A stretch of DNA of 64,000 nt, taken from Candidatus Sulfotelmatobacter sp. GTDB taxonomy: Bacteria > Acidobacteriota > Terriglobia > Terriglobales > Acidobacteriaceae. Positions 1 to 8,023 of the stretch are shown in pieces (the first letter of the stretch is position 1; every line of letters starts with the position of its first letter). The notes under the pieces are model-generated. The model was not told where the DNA came from. It ran no database searches and saw nothing but the letters and a program-made list of their open reading frames with translations. Location: positions 1,984,001-2,048,000 of the forward strand of contig DASYBM010000004.1 of the NCBI GenBank assembly GCA_036500765.1. Direction: 5' to 3'. The position numbers were made by a program, and so were the translations under genes.

Positions 1-1263
1 CACGGAGAACTGTTGCACGAAATGGTAAACGTCCTGATACGAGTTATATAAGGGCACGGCAGCTACCCGGAACGTGTCGGGCTCGCGCCAGTCTCCGATG
101 ACTCCTCCGGCGGTCAATCGGTCGCACAGCTTGCGGCCGTCAGTGGGCATGCGGATGGAGAGTTGGGCACCCCTTCGCTCCTGCTCCGGCGGAGTTATGA
201 TTGAGAACTTCGGCGAAGCATGTTGGCGGAGCAAAAACTCCATATATGCCGTGAGCGAAATGCTCTTGGCGCGCAAGGCTTCCATGCCGGCCCGAGAAAA
301 AATCTCCATCGACGCACGCAGAGGAGCCAGAGCAAGAATTGGAGGGTTGCTCAACTGCCAGCCTTCCGCGCCCGGCATGGCATGAAAGTCTGGCCCCATC
401 TGGAAGCGGACCTTTTCGTCATGTCCCCACCAGCCGGCGAAGCGCGGCAGATGCTGCGCGTGGGCGTGGCGCTCATGGACAAAGCAGCCCGCCACGCATC
501 CTGGGCCGCCATTCAAATATTTGTAGCTGCACCATACCCCGAAGTCCGGACCCCAGTCGTGGAGGTGGAGCGGAATATTTCCGGAGGCATGCGCCAGGTC
601 GAATCCGACCACGCATCCCTTGCGATGCCCCGCTTTTGTAACTGCCGCCAAATCGAAGGCCTGTCCGGTCGCGTAGTTCACGCCGCCCAGCAGGATCAGT
701 GCGATCGAGTCACCCTCGCGTTCGATCAGCGCTTCGATATCTTCGTCGCGCATGCAGGATTCGCCGTCGCGCGGCGTGAGTTCCACCAGCGACGATGCCG
801 GATCAAATTTATGAAACCGAATCTGAGAAGCCACGGCGTATTGATCCGACGGAAACGCTCCGCGTTCCACCAGAATCTTATGTCTAGCGTTCGTGGGGCG
901 GTAAAACGACGCCATCATCAGGTGCAGGTTTACGGTGAGCGAATTCATGACCACGACTTCTTCCGGCTGCGCGCCGACCAGAGCCGCGGTCTGCTCGGTC
1001 AGCAGACGGTGGTAGGGCATCCAGGGATTTTTGGCGTGGAAGTGTCCCTCGACGCCGAGATGCGCCCAGTCGCGCAGTTCCTGGTCGAGATAGGCTCGCG
1101 CCGATTTTGGTTGCAGCCCGAGAGAGTGCCCGCACAGGTAGATGCAGTCTTCGCCTGTTTTCGTTTTTGGAATAAAAAAGAGTTCACGAAAATAAGCCAG
1201 GGGATCGCGCTCATCCATGGCAACGGCAAAGTCTCTTCCAATGTGAAACGGTGGAAGGGTCAC
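1..1263 (-). CDS. kynU: Kynureninase (3' end cut by window edge)
   Basis: PLP enzyme that cleaves 3-hydroxykynurenine (or kynurenine) to 3-hydroxyanthranilate (or anthranilate) plus alanine. The frame is open for 421 codons to the left edge, so only the last few residues and the stop are missing. Family signatures are visible: an N-terminal ERDPLAYFRELFFIPK block, GHSLGLQPK near residue 45, and the PLP-lysine motif WCSYKYLNGGPG with the lysine at about residue 248. I chose the GTG start because it overlaps the TGA of the upstream monooxygenase gene (GTGA, 4 bp) and keeps N-terminal residues typical of the family; an ATG at 1218 is the alternative. Last visible gene of the kynurenine operon, probably translationally coupled. 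Confidence 0.93.
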   Translation of the reverse strand, partial: MTLPPFHIGRDFAVAMDERDPLAYFRELFFIPKTKTGEDCIYLCGHSLGLQPKSARAYLDQELRDWAHLGVEGHFHAKNPWMPYHRLLTEQTAALVGAQPEEVVVMNSLTVNLHLMMASFYRPTNARHKILVERGAFPSDQYAVASQIRFHKFDPASSLVELTPRDGESCMRDEDIEALIEREGDSIALILLGGVNYATGQAFDLAAVTKAGHRKGCVVGFDLAHASGNIPLHLHDWGPDFGVWCSYKYLNGGPGCVAGCFVHERHAHAQHLPRFAGWWGHDEKVRFQMGPDFHAMPGAEGWQLSNPPILALAPLRASMEIFSRAGMEALRAKSISLTAYMEFLLRQHASPKFSIITPPEQERRGAQLSIRMPTDGRKLCDRLTAGGVIGDWREPDTFRVAAVPLYNSYQDVYHFVQQFSV

Positions 1264-2627
1264 GCGGCCAGATCCAGAGGCGTGAGTCCGCTGCGAATCA
1301 GCTGGTCAGCCCTTTCCCAATCGAGACCCTCGACCCGATCGATGGACTCGCAGAGCTCGCTGAGGATGCCATCTTGCACTTTTCCGCGCTGCAGTGCGGT
1401 CGCGTAGGGGATGCGATGAAACGTGACCATCGAATACTTGGGCACGAAAAGCCGCGGATATTTCGCTTCGAGCGCCAGCTCAACTTTCTTGCGAAAGAGA
1501 AATCGCGGGTCGGCCACGCGATCTCTCATCTCTACAAAATTTTCCACTGCCAGGTCGGCGATGGCATCGGTATTGATCTTTCGGGCCGACTCAAATTCGC
1601 GGAAGATCCGCGCCCAATCGGTTCCATGGCGATCGAGCAGTTCGAGCAGAACCGAACAATCTTCAAAGCCGCAATTGATTCCTTGCCCAAAAAAGGGAAC
1701 GATCGCATGGGCCGCATCACCGAGCAGAAGAGCGCGGCGATCAATATGCCAGGGAGAACATTTGATCGTAACCATCGCGCCAGTAGGATTGGCAAAGAAA
1801 TTTGCCGCCAGATCCGGCATAAGCGGAATCGCGTCGGGAAAGCGCGCCCGAAAGAATTCCAGCACAAGCTCAGGTGATGTCAGATGGGCAAAGCTGTCGG
1901 GACCTTCAAATGGTAGAAAAAGAATGCAGGCAAATGTGCCGTCGACATTGGGCAAGGCGATGAGCATGTAATTGCCGCGCGGCCAAATGTGAAGCGCATT
2001 CGTTTCCAATACGTGCATGCCGTCTGGCCCGGCTGGAATCGAAAGCTCCTTGTAGCCGTAATTAAGATATTGTTGCGAAAAGTTGAACCCGGTCATCTTC
2101 AACATCTCGTTGCGAATCGCCGACACCGATCCGTCACAGCCGATCACAACCTCGCGTTCGATCGTTCTGTTCTCGCCGCTGCGTTCATCTCGCAATAAAA
2201 GCTCTCCGGTCTTCAGATCGATCCCGGTACAACGTTGTTGAAAATTGATCTTCACCCCTGCCTGCTCAGCCGCACTGATCAGCGCAATATTCAATTCGGC
2301 TCGCGAAATCGAATTGATGACCTCATTGTCATTCCTGCCGTAGGCTTGAAAAGTGAGCTGCGATGTCGCCGAATGCATCATTCTTCCCCGCATCGGAACG
2401 ACGATCTTCCGCATCTCGTCCCACAATCCAGCTTCGGTGAGGGCGTGAATTCCGCGGGTCGACAGGGCGAGGTTGATCGAGCGCCCGGCGCTCATGCGGA
2501 CGCGCCGCATGTCAGACCGGCGCTCATAGATCTCAACCCGATGCCCGCGCTTGACCAGGCCCAGCGCCAGCAGCGGGCCATTCAGTCCCGCGCCAATCAG
2601 TGAAATGGGTTGGAGTGGAGAAGTCAT
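1260..2627 (-). CDS. kmo: Kynurenine 3-monooxygenase
   Basis: FAD- and NADPH-dependent hydroxylase converting L-kynurenine to 3-hydroxykynurenine. The 455-residue product has the N-terminal Rossmann motif GAGLNG (residues 12-17), the CDGSVSAIR motif (164-172) and the FAD-binding GDAAHAIVPFFGQG motif (303-316), in the order expected for class A flavoprotein monooxygenases; its length fits KMO. The context between tryptophan dioxygenase and kynureninase supports KMO over other hydroxylases. No clear Shine-Dalgarno site precedes the ATG; the 103-bp gap to the upstream gene holds a long inverted repeat. Confidence 0.94.
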   Translation of the reverse strand: MTSPLQPISLIGAGLNGPLLALGLVKRGHRVEIYERRSDMRRVRMSAGRSINLALSTRGIHALTEAGLWDEMRKIVVPMRGRMMHSATSQLTFQAYGRNDNEVINSISRAELNIALISAAEQAGVKINFQQRCTGIDLKTGELLLRDERSGENRTIEREVVIGCDGSVSAIRNEMLKMTGFNFSQQYLNYGYKELSIPAGPDGMHVLETNALHIWPRGNYMLIALPNVDGTFACILFLPFEGPDSFAHLTSPELVLEFFRARFPDAIPLMPDLAANFFANPTGAMVTIKCSPWHIDRRALLLGDAAHAIVPFFGQGINCGFEDCSVLLELLDRHGTDWARIFREFESARKINTDAIADLAVENFVEMRDRVADPRFLFRKKVELALEAKYPRLFVPKYSMVTFHRIPYATALQRGKVQDGILSELCESIDRVEGLDWERADQLIRSGLTPLDLAA

Positions 2628-2730: not shown

Positions 2731-4590
2731 CTACTGCGTCAGGAGCGTTCGCGCCTCCCACAATTCGGGAAAGAATTTCTTGTCCAGGGTAAGTTTCAAA
2801 TACGACGACCCGGCGCTGCCGCCCGTGCCCATGCGGACGCCAATCACGCGCTCGACCAGTTGTATATGTCGCAGCCGCCAGCTCACCACCAGTTCGTCGA
2901 ACTCGGTGAGCCGTTCGCAGACATCGATCCAATCGCGATGGCTTCGTTCGTCCTGATAGAGCGAGAGCACGGCGCGGGCGCGCGCCTCGAAACGTTCGCG
3001 CTCGGTCGCTGTGTCGTCGAATCGCAATTTGCCCATGGTCCGCAGCGCGTCAAAGAAAACATCGTGCAGCGAAGGCTCACGCAGCCGGCGCTCCAACTGC
3101 GCATGCGCCTCGGGCGTCGGGCGATGGTAGCGCAACATTTTCTCGTCCTTCAGGCCGCATAAGAATTCCAACTCGCGAAATTGTTCCGATTGAAAACCGC
3201 TGGCGGGCTCGAGCTTTCCGCGGAAGGCCAGAAAGTGCGTCGGAAGCATGGTTTCGAGGATCGTGAACTGCTCCACCAATACGCGAGTAATTTCCGTGCA
3301 GCGCCGCAGCAAACGCGCTGCTTCATACACCTCATCGCGCGATTCAGGGTTCGCGCCGGCGCCGCGCAGGTTGGCGACCACCGCGTCCAGATCGTGCAGC
3401 AACTCCCGGAACCACAACTCGTAAGTCTGGTGCACGATGATGAACAAGAGTTCATCGTGGTGTTGCGGGTTCGATTGCGGGCGCTGCAACTTCAGAAGTT
3501 CCGGAACTTTGAGGTAGGAACTGTACGTGAGTTGCTCGGCGTGGGGAACGATCGGGGCGGCCGAGGTTGAAACCTCAGGGGTCGCTTGAGGCTGCGGGCG
3601 ATTAAGCGCTAGAAATTCCACGGCATTCGCGCCCAGCAGCAGGTCTTTTTCGAGCGAGGACAATTCACTCGATCGAATCAGCGACCCGACGCGATGCTCG
3701 CCCAGCGGGAACGGATAGTCCGATCCGAGCATGACACGCTCCGCGCCCAGGGTTCCCACCAAAAACTGAAGAGCCCGCGCGTCGAACACTGCGGAATCTG
3801 TATAGAAGCGATTCAGATAATGCCTTGGAGGCAACTCGCAAACGCCGCGTGCCACGGGATGATGCTGCCAGGCGTTCTCGAGCCGTCCAAGCAAGAAGGC
3901 AAAACTTCCACCGCCATGAGCGAAGCAGATGCGTAGTTTCGTTGGCAGTTTGTCGAAGGCACCGCTTAAAATCATCGCGACGATGCCGAGTTGCGTCTCG
4001 GCCGGCATCGCGACGGTCCACGGCATCATGTACTTCGGCATGCGCTCGGGGGCGAGCATGTCCCAGGGGTGCACCAGTACAGCGGCGCCCTCATCCGAGC
4101 AATGATGCAGGAAGGTCACCATGCCGGGATCGTCGAGATTTTTCTCTCCGACGTGATTGCCGATCTGCACTCCCAGGTGCCCCGCGCGCATACACCGGCT
4201 CAGTTCTTGGCATGCGGAATCGATATCCTGTAGCGGAACCTGGCACAAGGACTTCAGCCGGCCCTGACCCTGGGCGCAGAGTCCGAGCGCCGCATCGTTG
4301 AACAGTTGCGCACAATCCAGCGCATGCTGAATGGGACGATCATAGGCGAACAGCACCGGCGTGGCCGAGAGAATTTGCATGTCCACTCCGTCGCGGTCCA
4401 TCTCACTCAGCCGCACTTCGGGGTCCCAGCAAGCGGAATAGATCTGGCGGAAGAACCGATCCCCCACCATGATTTCCGCTTTGCCCGTCTCTGTATGCTT
4501 GATCCAGGGCCAGTTGGGAGTGCCGTAACGCGCCGCAAGATCGGGCCAATTGCGTGGAAAAAAGTGATTATGAATGTCGATGATTCGCAT
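2731..4590 (-). CDS. kynA: Fusion protein: aminocarboxymuconate-semialdehyde decarboxylase (ACMSD) + tryptophan 2,3-dioxygenase
   Basis: A single 619-residue frame joins two kynurenine-pathway enzymes. Residues 1-330 are an ACMSD-type amidohydrolase: HxH metal ligands H7/H9 in DIHNHFFP, H174 in VLVHPWD, H225 in FAHGGGSF and D291 in GSDYPFPLGE. After a linker (about 331-355, rich in Pro, Ala and Thr), residues 356-619 are a full tryptophan 2,3-dioxygenase: HDELLFIIVHQTYELWF (378-394, with the conserved His387), the proximal heme-ligand candidate H575 in WRLRHIQLVERVIG, and GTGGSAGSSYL (588-598). The first domain decarboxylates 2-amino-3-carboxymuconate semialdehyde; the second opens the tryptophan indole ring. 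No stop or frame change lies between them. Both halves keep their key residues and are near full length, so both should be active. Confidence 0.93.
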   Translation of the reverse strand: MRIIDIHNHFFPRNWPDLAARYGTPNWPWIKHTETGKAEIMVGDRFFRQIYSACWDPEVRLSEMDRDGVDMQILSATPVLFAYDRPIQHALDCAQLFNDAALGLCAQGQGRLKSLCQVPLQDIDSACQELSRCMRAGHLGVQIGNHVGEKNLDDPGMVTFLHHCSDEGAAVLVHPWDMLAPERMPKYMMPWTVAMPAETQLGIVAMILSGAFDKLPTKLRICFAHGGGSFAFLLGRLENAWQHHPVARGVCELPPRHYLNRFYTDSAVFDARALQFLVGTLGAERVMLGSDYPFPLGEHRVGSLIRSSELSSLEKDLLLGANAVEFLALNRPQPQATPEVSTSAAPIVPHAEQLTYSSYLKVPELLKLQRPQSNPQHHDELLFIIVHQTYELWFRELLHDLDAVVANLRGAGANPESRDEVYEAARLLRRCTEITRVLVEQFTILETMLPTHFLAFRGKLEPASGFQSEQFRELEFLCGLKDEKMLRYHRPTPEAHAQLERRLREPSLHDVFFDALRTMGKLRFDDTATERERFEARARAVLSLYQDERSHRDWIDVCERLTEFDELVVSWRLRHIQLVERVIGVRMGTGGSAGSSYLKLTLDKKFFPELWEARTLLTQ

Positions 4591-4608: not shown

Positions 4609-5151
<543 letters not shown>

Positions 5152-5580
5152 TTAATTCTTTTTCTCCGGCTGGTATGCCATCGCTCGAATTTCGATCAGC
5201 AAGTGTGGATGCGGCAACTGGTGGACGGCCACGGTCGTCCGAGTCGGCCCATCGTAGCCGAAGAATTCACCATACACGTCGTTGTATCCCGCGAAATCGT
5301 TCATGTTCACCAGGTAGGTCGTCACCTCGACAACATCTTCCAGTTGCGCGCCCGCGCTTTTCAGGATGTCACGCACGTTCTCAATCACGGCCCTGGTCTG
5401 CAAGCGAATATCGAGATGCGTGGCGCCGAGTTCATCGGCCTCCGCGCCGGCAATGGAATTGTCGGGGCGGCGCGCGCTGGTACCGGAAACAAACAGGAAG
5501 TCGCCCGCGCGCTTGACGTGAGGAAATTTTCCCCGCGGCTTTGCCTTTCCCGCCACCACCGTGCTTTCGACTTTCCCCAT
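5152..5580 (-). CDS. 2-aminomuconate deaminase, RidA/YjgF family
   Basis: RidA-fold protein of 142 residues from the ATG used here. Within the operon its expected role is hydrolytic deamination of 2-aminomuconate to 4-oxalocrotonate (2-oxo-hex-3-enedioate). The sequence shows the RidA pattern: [31 protein letters not shown], and the C-terminal [14 protein letters not shown] with the Arg typical of the active site. It resembles the longer aminomuconate deaminase subgroup rather than housekeeping RidA. A TTG at 5598 could add six residues; neither start has a convincing Shine-Dalgarno site. The assignment rests partly on its position between the dehydrogenase and 3-hydroxyanthranilate dioxygenase. 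Confidence 0.85.
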
Positions 5581-5601
5581 TTTTGCGCTTTGCTGCAAGC
5601 C

Positions 5602-7077
5602 TTACAAGCCAATGCAGATATTGTTCAGTTCGGAATAAAAATTCAGCGAATGCATTCCGCCTTCACGCCCGATGCCGGAAAGTCCGGCGCCGCCGAAGGG
5701 CGTTCGCAGGTCGCGAAGGAACCAGCAATTCACCCACGTAATACCGACATTCATCGCCTGCGCTACGCGGTGACCTCGTTTCAAATTCGTCGTCCAGATC
5801 GACGCGGCCAAGCCGTATTTCGTATCGTTCGCCATCCGGATCGCTTCTTCTTCGTCATCAAAAGCAGCGATGTGACACACAGGGCCAAATATTTCTTCCT
5901 TCACGCAGCGCGCCGATTCCGACAATCCAGTATAGATCGTCGGCTGCACGTAGAAGCCCTGATCGAGCGCGTTGCCGAACTGCGGAATGCCGCCGCCCGT
6001 CAGTACCGTTGCGCCCTCTTCGCGCGCCAATCGGTAATAGGAGAGCACTTTGTCGCGATGCGTTGCCGAAATGAGCGGGCCAAGATTGGTATTGTTCTCC
6101 AGCGGAGACCCGACTTGCAGGGTTTCGGCTTTACCTTTCAGCGCCTCGACGAAACGCGGGAAGATGGCGCGCTCCACATAAACTCTCTCCGCGCAAAGAC
6201 AGACCTGCCCGGTGTTGAGGAACACCGCGTCGCGGATGCCGTTGACCGCTTCGTCAAAATTGCAATCGGCGAATACGATTGCGGCATTCTTGCCGCCGAG
6301 TTCGAAGGAGACCGGTTTCACCGAGGCCGCGACCGTCTTCATGATCGCGGCCCCAGTCTGCGACTCACCGGTGAAGGTCACGGCATTTACGTTGGGATGC
6401 TGCGTAAGAAATTCACCCGCCGAATTCGGACCGAAGCCGTGGACGACGTTGTAGACCCCGGCAGGAATTCCCGCCGCCGCTATCGCTTCGGCGAGAAGCG
6501 TGGCGGTCGCCGGAGTTTCCTCGGAGGGCTTGACCACGACCGTGTTGCCGCAGGCCAGGGCCGGCGCGACTTTCCAGGTGAGGAGCAACAGCGGCAGGTT
6601 CCATGGAGTGACGATGCCCACCACGCCGAGCGGCTTGCGCACCGCATAATTCAGCGCGCTCTTGCCATCGGGCGTTTCGGTTTGAAAAGATTCCAGAGGC
6701 GCGGTTTTGATCAGATCGGCAAATACGCGGAAGTTCGCGGCCGCGCGCGGAACGTCGAGCTTAGAAGCAAGGGCGACTGGCTTGCCCGTGTCCGCCACTT
6801 CGGCGGCGACAAAATCAGTGAAGCGCGCCTCGATCGCGTCCGCCACCTTGTGCAGCCGAGCGGCGCGCTCGCGGACGCCCAACCGGCCCCACTCCCCGCC
6901 CAACGCTCTACGGGCGGCCGCCACCGCATCGTCGACCAAGCCAGCGTCGGCTTCTGCCACTTGCGCAATCAAGCTGCCGTCGGCAGGATTCACATCGGCG
7001 AACTCACGCTTGCCGCGTACGAACTCGCCCCCGATGTAATTCAGAATGGACTTCAATTGGCGACAACCCCGCCGCAT
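5602..7077 (-). CDS. 2-aminomuconate-6-semialdehyde dehydrogenase
   Basis: NAD-dependent aldehyde dehydrogenase (491 aa) of the hydroxymuconic/aminomuconic semialdehyde dehydrogenase group. It has the catalytic Asn160 in TPWNLPLL, the general base Glu259 in SFELGGKN, and the nucleophile Cys293 in NTGQVCLCAERVYV. The C-terminal SGIGREGGMHSLNFYSE is typical of the DmpC/NbaE-type branch. In this operon it should oxidise 2-aminomuconate semialdehyde, the ACMSD product, to 2-aminomuconate. It is the first gene of the operon as seen here, so the promoter should lie in 7078-7300, where I see no convincing -35/-10 pair. A TTG at codon 8 is a possible alternative start. Confidence 0.9.
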   Translation of the reverse strand: MRRGCRQLKSILNYIGGEFVRGKREFADVNPADGSLIAQVAEADAGLVDDAVAAARRALGGEWGRLGVRERAARLHKVADAIEARFTDFVAAEVADTGKPVALASKLDVPRAAANFRVFADLIKTAPLESFQTETPDGKSALNYAVRKPLGVVGIVTPWNLPLLLLTWKVAPALACGNTVVVKPSEETPATATLLAEAIAAAGIPAGVYNVVHGFGPNSAGEFLTQHPNVNAVTFTGESQTGAAIMKTVAASVKPVSFELGGKNAAIVFADCNFDEAVNGIRDAVFLNTGQVCLCAERVYVERAIFPRFVEALKGKAETLQVGSPLENNTNLGPLISATHRDKVLSYYRLAREEGATVLTGGGIPQFGNALDQGFYVQPTIYTGLSESARCVKEEIFGPVCHIAAFDDEEEAIRMANDTKYGLAASIWTTNLKRGHRVAQAMNVGITWVNCWFLRDLRTPFGGAGLSGIGREGGMHSLNFYSELNNICIGL

Positions 7078-7302
7078 CGTAACAGTCTGGCGTCGGGCGA
7101 AGCAACGTCTGGGCGAAGTGCGGACAATCCTGCGCCCTTTGCCGTTTCCCTCTTAATTTTTCGCGGCGCGTTGGTGTCACGTCGAGCCGCAACGAGACCC
7201 AAAGGATCTGGTGCACTGAACCTTCGTCTCTGGCGGCTGCGCGCGCAATTGCGGGTGCAGGATGCGATTACGCAGGGTGGCTTAACTTGACTGCACGCCT
7301 TA

Positions 7303-7328
7303 AACGTGATACACGTATTTTACGTGTA
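7303..7328 (+). promoter_or_regulatory. Operator of alternating ACGTG/CACGT half-sites before a toxin-antitoxin operon
   Basis: Three half-sites alternate in orientation: ACGTG (7304-7308), CACGT (7312-7316) and ACGTG (7322-7326). The second and third lie in a perfect 8-bp inverted repeat, TACACGTA-TTT-TACGTGTA (7310-7328... arms 7310-7317 and 7321-7328). The block ends 9 bp before the antitoxin ATG, where a ribbon-helix-helix antitoxin would autorepress. The binding role is inferred from position and symmetry. Confidence 0.65.
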
Positions 7329-7337
7329 GAAGACTTT

Positions 7338-7574
7338 ATGCCCAAGCAAAATCTTACGGTTAGCCTCCCCCAGCAGACAATACGCAAAGCCAAAATCCTG
7401 GCTGCGAGGCGGGGTTCCTCTATCAGCGGACTTTTGGCCGAGCAGATTGAGATTCTGGTGGGAGAAGACGAGGCGTATGAGCGCGCCCAGCGTCAAGCCA
7501 CGGCTTTCCTGGAGCAGGGGTTTCATCTGGGCGGTGTGATTCGTGGCACCCGCGAGGAGCGGCATGAACGCTGA
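7338..7574 (+). CDS. Antitoxin, ribbon-helix-helix type (DUF6364-like)
   Basis: Small 78-residue protein starting MPKQNLTVSLPQQTIRKAKI. The N-terminal strand-helix-helix pattern (NLTVSLPQQTIRKAKILAARR, then SSISGLLAEQIE) is typical of ribbon-helix-helix DNA-binding antitoxins paired with PIN toxins. The C-terminal half would bind the toxin. The ATG is preceded by an AGAAGA-like site and by the ACGTG-repeat operator; upstream in-frame codons are rejected because they would run through that operator. A PIN-domain gene follows 23 bp downstream. Confidence 0.85.
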   Translation: MPKQNLTVSLPQQTIRKAKILAARRGSSISGLLAEQIEILVGEDEAYERAQRQATAFLEQGFHLGGVIRGTREERHER

Positions 7575-7597
7575 GCGGGGTGATCGACGGCGGAACG

Positions 7598-8023
7598 ATG
7601 ATCGATAAGACCTTCGTCGATACAAATATCCTGATTTACGCGCACGACGTTGATGCGAAAACCAAGCACGACATCGCCAGGAATGTTTTGCGAGAACTTT
7701 GGAGCGGGCGCAGCGGTGTTCTCAGCATGCAAGTGCTAAAGGAATTTTATGTGAACGTAACCCGCAAGATCGCTTCCCCGCTGCCGAGAAGCGAAGCGCG
7801 GCTGGTGGTGAACAGCTATTCGATCTGGTGCGTGGAAACAACGCCGACCGAAATTGCAGCCGCGTTCCGAATCGAGGACGAATCCCGCATCGGTTTCTGG
7901 GACGCACTCATTGTCGCTTCCGCAGCGAAAGCTGGAACGACGCGAATCCTGTCGGAGGACTTGGATGCCCAGCAGCAGATTGCGGGCATTCGCATAGAAA
8001 ATCCGTTCGCTCATCTGCGGTGA
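7598..8023 (+). CDS. PIN-domain ribonuclease toxin (VapC-like)
   Basis: PIN-domain protein of 141 residues, the likely toxin partner of the preceding antitoxin. It has the opening acidic motif FVDTNILIYAHD (Asp8), a central EFYVNVTRK segment, and the C-terminal IGFWDALIVASAAKAG with a further conserved Asp, followed by ILSEDLD. VapC-type toxins use these acids to hold metal and cleave RNA, often tRNA; the target here cannot be read. The ATG has a GGCGGA site upstream; a GTG at 7580 is an alternative start. The acidic motifs are intact, so the toxin should be functional. Confidence 0.88.
   Translation: MIDKTFVDTNILIYAHDVDAKTKHDIARNVLRELWSGRSGVLSMQVLKEFYVNVTRKIASPLPRSEARLVVNSYSIWCVETTPTEIAAAFRIEDESRIGFWDALIVASAAKAGTTRILSEDLDAQQQIAGIRIENPFAHLR

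Follow-up and report, generated by a model that had tools for sequence, protein, structure and literature searches.

A conserved operon of six genes lies within the window, the whole 64,000-nucleotide stretch of Candidatus Sulfotelmatobacter DNA analyzed here. The genes are read from the minus strand in the order AMSDH-RidA-HAO-ACMSD::TDO-KMO-KynU, and the fourth joins ACMSD and tryptophan 2,3-dioxygenase (TDO) in one reading frame. Neighboring genes lie 3 to 103 bases apart, except for one pair that overlaps by 5 bases, and the 3' end of the KynU gene lies 8 bases beyond the window. The operon and the parts of the fused gene are as follows.

5602..7077, minus strand: AMSDH, the first operon gene (PDB 7bzv, E 2.8e-220; NCBIfam TIGR03216 over its cut-off)
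5152..5598, minus strand: RidA-family protein, a probable 2-aminomuconate deaminase (PF01042)
4609..5142, minus strand: HAO, 3-hydroxyanthranilate 3,4-dioxygenase (PF06052 and NCBIfam TIGR03037 over cut-off)
2731..4590, minus strand: ACMSD-TDO fusion, 619 amino acids, ATG start, stop at 2731-2733
3604..4590, minus strand: ACMSD domain of the fusion, residues 1-329 (Pfam, PDB and fold match)
3532..3603, minus strand: linker of the fusion, residues 330-353 (no in-frame start codon; pLDDT under 50 at residues 332-356)
2734..3531, minus strand: TDO domain of the fusion, residues 354-619 (Pfam, NCBIfam, PDB and fold match)
1260..2627, minus strand: KMO, kynurenine 3-monooxygenase (PDB 6lkd, E 1.8e-99)
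1..1264, minus strand: KynU, kynureninase, the last gene (L174:7993-9264; Pfam KYNU_C, 2.9e-27)

TIGR03216 is the model for 2-hydroxymuconic semialdehyde dehydrogenase. AmnE of Pseudomonas AP-3 is described as a RidA-family 2-aminomuconate deaminase (PMC6742747), and thus the RidA gene of the operon has a ready role. For formamidase, only a cyclase-family candidate was found (PF04199 at G000:C4:1786610), 200 kb from the operon. As judged from its genes, the operon is predicted to be one for the breakdown of tryptophan to 2-aminomuconate and beyond. A promoter scan was uninformative (1 site, versus an average of 2.4 in shuffled sequences).

The frame of the fused gene runs for 625 codons from stop to stop, and the plus strand of 2731-4590 is broken by stops. 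An earlier note, made from the letters of the sequence, had described a single uninterrupted frame of 619 residues holding a complete ACMSD and a complete TDO; the translation and the Pfam and PDB matches all agree with this description. The protein has one matching place only in the 5.04-Mb genome (E 0.001). Pfam Amidohydro_2 matches residues 4-327 with 104 bits (cut-off 26.4), and Pfam Trp_dioxygenase exceeds its gathering score in two stretches, the better of which spans residues 354-494 with 191 bits (cut-off 34.9). Sequence matches in the PDB cover residues 4-330 for the ACMSD 2hbv (E 6e-118) and residues 353-616 for the TDO 2nw7 (E 1e-51). Positions 4-263 of the 264 in the NCBIfam equivalog model TIGR03036 are covered by the TDO half, but its 240 bits fall below the cut-off of 390.7, which is a score threshold for naming and not a biochemical feature; this half is thus best regarded as a diverged TDO.

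An AlphaFold2 model built from 35 aligned proteins (mean pLDDT 82, pTM 0.55) contains two mostly confident domains. Outside the linker, pLDDT also drops below 50 at residues 177-196, 291-298, 462-465, and 586-592, some of which lie at active sites. With Foldseek, the model matches 2hbv over 331 columns (E 8e-31, TM 0.92 by target, 51% identity) and, lower in the ranking, the Xanthomonas campestris TDO 7p46 (E 1.8e-15, TM 0.78).

The residues that the earlier note had singled out were all found at the positions claimed and are kept in the alignments: H7, H9, H174, H225, D291, H387, and H575 are invariant across 39 fused proteins, and the GTGG motif (residues 588-591) is invariant in 11. The five ACMSD residues align with the metal-binding and catalytic H9, H11, H177, H228, and D294 of the Pseudomonas fluorescens enzyme. 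In the TDO half, H387 is presumably the base and H575 the heme ligand, with R457 (invariant in the 39) and T589 (invariant in the 11) presumably binding substrate. The P. fluorescens ACMSD (2hbv and others), a member of the amidohydrolase superfamily, is 51% identical over the whole length and has the same fold, and it shares with the fusion its metal and catalytic residues and its interface arginines; unlike the ACMSD of the fusion, which carries a C-terminal TDO, it stands alone. The interface arginines are R48 and R236 of the fusion, invariant in 39 fused proteins and aligned with P. fluorescens R51 and R239, which come from the neighboring subunit (title of PDB 4ifk). The X. campestris TDO (2nw7, 7p46) matches over its whole length, with H55, H240, R117, T254, and F51 corresponding to H387, H575, R457, T589, and F383, and its N-terminal Y24 and Y27 corresponding to Y356 and Y359, both of which are invariant in the 39; it lacks the ACMSD and linker that precede the TDO of the fusion. 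We infer that 2731-4590 encodes a bifunctional enzyme of the kynurenine pathway that has both activities.

The fusion is not an oddity of one genome but is shared by a group of soil and peat Acidobacteria, whereas the two enzymes are normally separate proteins. A search for further proteins covering both domains, as the earlier note had proposed, led to 46 distinct fused proteins from several genera; the genome collections overlap and contain many of the same genomes, hence the count of distinct proteins. Within the genus, a match was found in 38 of 45 genomes, while the other seven had no match to either half. The earlier note had also named a stop or frameshift at the junction as what would refute the claim; the fusion is full length and in one frame in 35 of the 45 genus genomes. 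It lies in pieces at contig ends in G049, and it is frame-broken outside the linker in two more (G015 near residue 380, G021 near residue 280). These two were considered as de-fused, split genes and rejected, as the breaks fall inside a domain, the frames overlap, and the linker is untouched; they are taken for frameshifts, either true or made by assembly.

In a sample of the class, 13 of 399 genomes carry the fusion: five of the genus, two from other genera of the same family (G284 and G381), and six of g68, a genus of family f7. Outside the genus, it is thus full length in seven of these genomes and cut by a contig end in one (G327 of g68, in which only the TDO side is visible). Among the matches listed for a phylum sample of 396 genomes, there was no fusion outside the class. 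A scan of named genome contigs with two N-terminal ACMSD patterns, which could miss distant fusions, gave 93 pattern matches and 47 relatives, 42 of which proved to be intact fusions in a frame check. The remaining five comprise two frame-broken genes, one cut gene, and two alphaproteobacterial ACMSDs with no TDO in the stretch examined. All 47 relatives come from MAGs, many of them from palsa and bog, and are labeled Candidatus Sulfotelmatobacter, Acidobacteriaceae, Acidobacteria, Terriglobia, or Bryobacterales. HAO accompanies 41 of the 42 intact fusions; at the exception, the Bryobacterales locus L123, KMO follows the fusion and no lower module (AMSDH-RidA-HAO-ACMSD) was found in the stretch examined. 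Although 410 of 72,556 plasmid records match, none covers 80% of the fusion protein at one place, and these limited searches of plasmids and, by pattern, of named contigs detected no ACMSD-TDO fusion outside Acidobacteriota.

Candidates for further fusions in the phylum, namely several TDO matches in open frames of 500-1125 codons, were set aside. These frames run from stop to stop in GC-rich DNA, and in the ones inspected in detail (L140, L142, L149, L157, and L158) the TDO match is closely preceded by a methionine. The earlier note knew of no described example, and indeed no report of an ACMSD-TDO fusion was found in the open-access PMC literature. Both enzyme families and the kind of operon are already known; what appears to be new is the joined architecture, together with the finding that its carriers mostly lack the quinolinate synthase NadA and mostly keep NadC.

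Because the same fusion recurs in many assemblies, including the one-contig genome G284, an artefact of sequencing or assembly at the junction can be dismissed with near certainty. Whether the two halves could nonetheless be made as, or become, separate proteins depends on the linker, estimated at about 25 residues in the earlier note and found to span 24 (330-353). Across the 46 distinct fused proteins, linkers range from 9 to 53 residues and are poorly conserved in sequence. Separation through internal initiation, or through proteolysis in a disordered linker, would fit the low model confidence there, and 24 of the 46 linkers do contain an ATG, GTG, or TTG, four of them with a purine-rich stretch ahead of the start. 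Against this, none of the three start codons occurs in frame in the linker of the window or in 22 of the 46, and 39 of the 46 have no ATG. Of the 92 shifted frames of the 46 linkers, two for each, 44 contain a stop. Separate translation of the halves is unlikely, and separation by either route is, in our judgment, very improbable. Purifying selection clearly acts on both halves: for the 19 of 45 pairs among ten close relatives that yielded a dS, the median dN/dS is 0.07 for the ACMSD half and 0.04 for the TDO half, values that are rough because dS is near saturation.

Eight of the 46 linkers (L034-L040 and L118) contain GCP with F, V, A, or M as the next residue; these are eight of the nine linkers of at least 31 residues. 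The motif may be a relic of the N-terminal tail of a free TDO, although the nearest free TDOs (L137-L139) have short tails that lack it.

Comparison with unfused relatives places the fusion where two gene modules meet, a point that the earlier note missed. The lower module is found elsewhere with ACMSD at its end: Mycetohabitans (L172) has AMSDH-RidA-HAO-ACMSD in identical order, followed by a gene on the opposite strand. Parts of the module occur in Polaromonas (L169), where a LysR regulator comes after RidA-HAO-ACMSD, and in Niveispirillum (L168), where HAO precedes ACMSD and transport-like genes come next. At the Rhodospirillales locus L130, the genes downstream of HAO-ACMSD lie on the opposite strand, and the order of the module differs in Vibrio (L171). 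The ACMSDs of L172, L169, and L168 are 54-63% identical to that of the fusion, but unlike the operon of the window, these three loci have no TDO, KMO, or KynU in the stretches examined. A second point of comparison is the unfused operon HAO-ACMSD-KynU-KMO-TDO of other Acidobacteriota (L140-L152), which encodes an identical pathway but keeps ACMSD and TDO separate and non-adjacent, with 40-49% and 40-45% identity to the respective halves of the fusion; in most of the 13 such operons fetched, KynU and KMO lie between them.

Identity to the genes of the window is 57-67% for AMSDH, 66-76% for RidA, and 53-63% for ACMSD at five plasmid loci, versus 46-48%, 40-45%, and 40-49%, respectively, in the unfused operons of Acidobacteriota, whereas HAO does not discriminate between the sources (48-58% at the five plasmid loci and 48-61% for proteobacterial genes overall, versus 46-55% for unfused acidobacterial genes). 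Trees were built from 19 fused and 16 unfused rows chosen by hand; the pools comprised 46 fused and 40 unfused rows for TDO, and 46 and 34 for ACMSD. In each unfused pool, two rows are really frame-broken or cut fusions, and these were left out. In the ACMSD tree, the half from the fusion clusters with proteobacterial sequences and not with the other acidobacterial ones (support 100/100); in the TDO tree, the corresponding half clusters with free TDOs from the acidobacterial family f83 (100/99). All fused rows fall on the same side of a branch in each tree, with modest support of 59/88 and 71/83 (not starred), and a single origin of the fusion is favored on these sequences. The f83 TDOs (L059-L061, L137-L139) are 75-77% identical to the TDO half but are free proteins with no ACMSD in the stretches examined, and NadA is present in all three genomes; these TDOs could be the product of a later split. 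At L137-L139, a distant kynureninase-like gene (24-26%) lies near the free TDO.

The fusion thus seems, from gene order and sequence, to sit at the former boundary between the lower module and the tryptophan-side genes. The lower module and the tryptophan-side genes (TDO, KMO, and KynU) would have come into one operon, and loss of the ACMSD stop ahead of TDO would then have yielded the fused chain. Adjacency in an operon can explain the origin of the fusion, and two enzymes that are not consecutive would have been joined because they were neighbors as genes and not in the pathway. The main rival to a functional explanation, a neutral operon fusion, accounts for the origin equally well: the modules were joined, the stop was lost, both domains continued to fold, and the resulting chain was simply passed on, with no gain from the linkage. 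The join at a module junction, the variable and poorly conserved linker, and the separate ACMSD and TDO of other Acidobacteriota with complete-looking operons all speak for such a history. On the other side, none of the 38 matching genus genomes holds the halves as two intact genes, although retention alone is no proof of advantage. We regard a purely neutral fusion as a serious possibility, albeit one that we would not choose as our first answer.

The steps catalyzed by TDO and ACMSD are separated by those of formamidase, KMO, KynU, and HAO, in keeping with the remark in the earlier note that they are not consecutive. This spacing weighs heavily against substrate channeling, in which the fusion would position ACMSD for the direct hand-over of an intermediate: TDO and ACMSD have no common substrate or product, and none of the four intervening enzymes is in the fused chain. 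To deal with the unstable intermediates, HAO, ACMSD, and AMSDH have been suggested to form a transient complex (PMC10143591), and HAO directly precedes the fusion gene in the operon. Even so, we consider channeling a poor candidate, with little chance of being correct.

A further line of evidence comes from NAD biosynthesis, for which bacteria usually make the precursor with NadA. In the genome of the window, NadC is present and no NadA match was found by a search that gives matches in 12 of 14 controls. Within the genus, not one of the 38 genomes that contain the fusion or pieces of it gave a NadA match, as against three of the seven without it (Fisher p 0.0025, kinship ignored); NadC was found in 35 of the 38 and five of the seven. 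When only the 20 genus genomes with a completeness of at least 90% and a contamination of no more than 5% are considered, NadA is absent from all 16 with the fusion or pieces and present in two of the remaining four. The pattern recurs in g68, in which, among the matches listed, NadA occurs in none of six carriers and all 12 non-carriers (p 5e-5, kinship ignored); the six carriers are 73-95% complete, and the chance that NadA fell into the missing share in all of them is about 1e-5. Across the class sample, two of the 13 carriers have NadA, compared with 340 of the 386 other genomes (kinship ignored).

The two carriers with NadA are G284 and G381, and NAD supply is therefore not the reason why the fusion exists everywhere. 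Of the genus genomes, G001, G006, G019, and G054 have neither the fusion nor NadA, and the first two also lack a NadC match; they may have lost NadA by another route, be NAD auxotrophs, or be incomplete MAGs. NadA is present in ten of the 13 unfused kynurenine-operon genomes fetched, a set limited to genomes in which the two genes lie near each other on one contig and not covering every genome that has both; thus, the kynurenine pathway alone does not go with loss of NadA, and separate enzymes suffice.

Bacteria can reportedly make quinolinate from tryptophan, as Kurnasov and others are said to have described in 2003. Sequence searches find the corresponding combination in the genome of the window, namely no NadA, a NadC, and a pathway to ACMS. 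Bacteria that import quinolinate can likewise have NadC but no NadA, as described for Bordetella (PMC11452294). ACMSD probably sits at the carriers' own NAD branch point. In most carriers examined, because NadA was not found, the quinolinate for NAD would come from leakage past ACMSD or from outside. Separately, five genomes of family f45 (G493, G504, G534, G558, and G595) contain ACMSD, with no TDO found (E 1e-40) and NadA in none of the five; their loci are L153, L154, and L167, the first of which holds RidA, HAO, ACMSD, KynU, and KMO.

In its known relatives, TDO is a homotetramer in which an N-terminal segment reaches into the active site of the neighboring subunit. The activity of ACMSD is described as depending on its oligomeric state: the monomer is inactive, the dimer is active, and larger forms are more active still, because each active site needs the arginines of a neighbor (PMC10143591). 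The same source has ACMS cyclizing spontaneously to quinolinate and calls the regulation of this split unknown (PMC10143591). On balance, we lean towards a bifunctional enzyme in which the TDO tetramer holds ACMSD as active dimers and fixes the ratio of the entry enzyme to the branch-point enzyme. The four ACMSD domains carried by one TDO tetramer would stay paired in two active dimers, and the chain would fix ACMSD to TDO at 1:1. ACMS formed from tryptophan would then meet active ACMSD, and the share cyclizing to quinolinate would stay steady. The adaptive part of this explanation we infer; if the fusion has a function, the holding of dimers and the fixed ratio are presumably the part most likely to matter.

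The earlier note had suggested that the fusion fixes the entry and exit of the pathway at equal dose. This idea survives in sharper form, because ACMSD competes with spontaneous quinolinate formation and most of the carriers examined lack NadA; ACMSD is accordingly more than just the exit, and the fusion may bring a functional advantage. A bolder version, which we put forward as speculation and consider rather unlikely, is that the fusion acts as a metabolic valve in NadA-less Terriglobia: a 4:4 complex would keep the fraction of tryptophan going to NAD constant whatever the expression or tryptophan supply, and would have let at least two lineages drop NadA. If so, the sole new quinolinate in these bacteria would be what escapes ACMSD. 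A natural protein that links ACMSD to a tetrameric entry enzyme allows the split of ACMS flux to be tested, with one construct set against its split version, and the NadA pattern singles out bacterial lineages that may derive their NAD from tryptophan.

Two minor observations concern the surroundings of the operon. Divergent from it, on the plus strand at 7287-8023, lie a small gene (a weak DUF6364 match, under cut-off) and then a PIN-domain gene, a pair that resembles a toxin-antitoxin system of the VapBC type. Beyond KynU, on the same strand, the genome of the window encodes a GGDEF-domain protein (L174:6059-7936; Pfam), and a frame that looks similar by eye follows KynU at L087:12621-14456.
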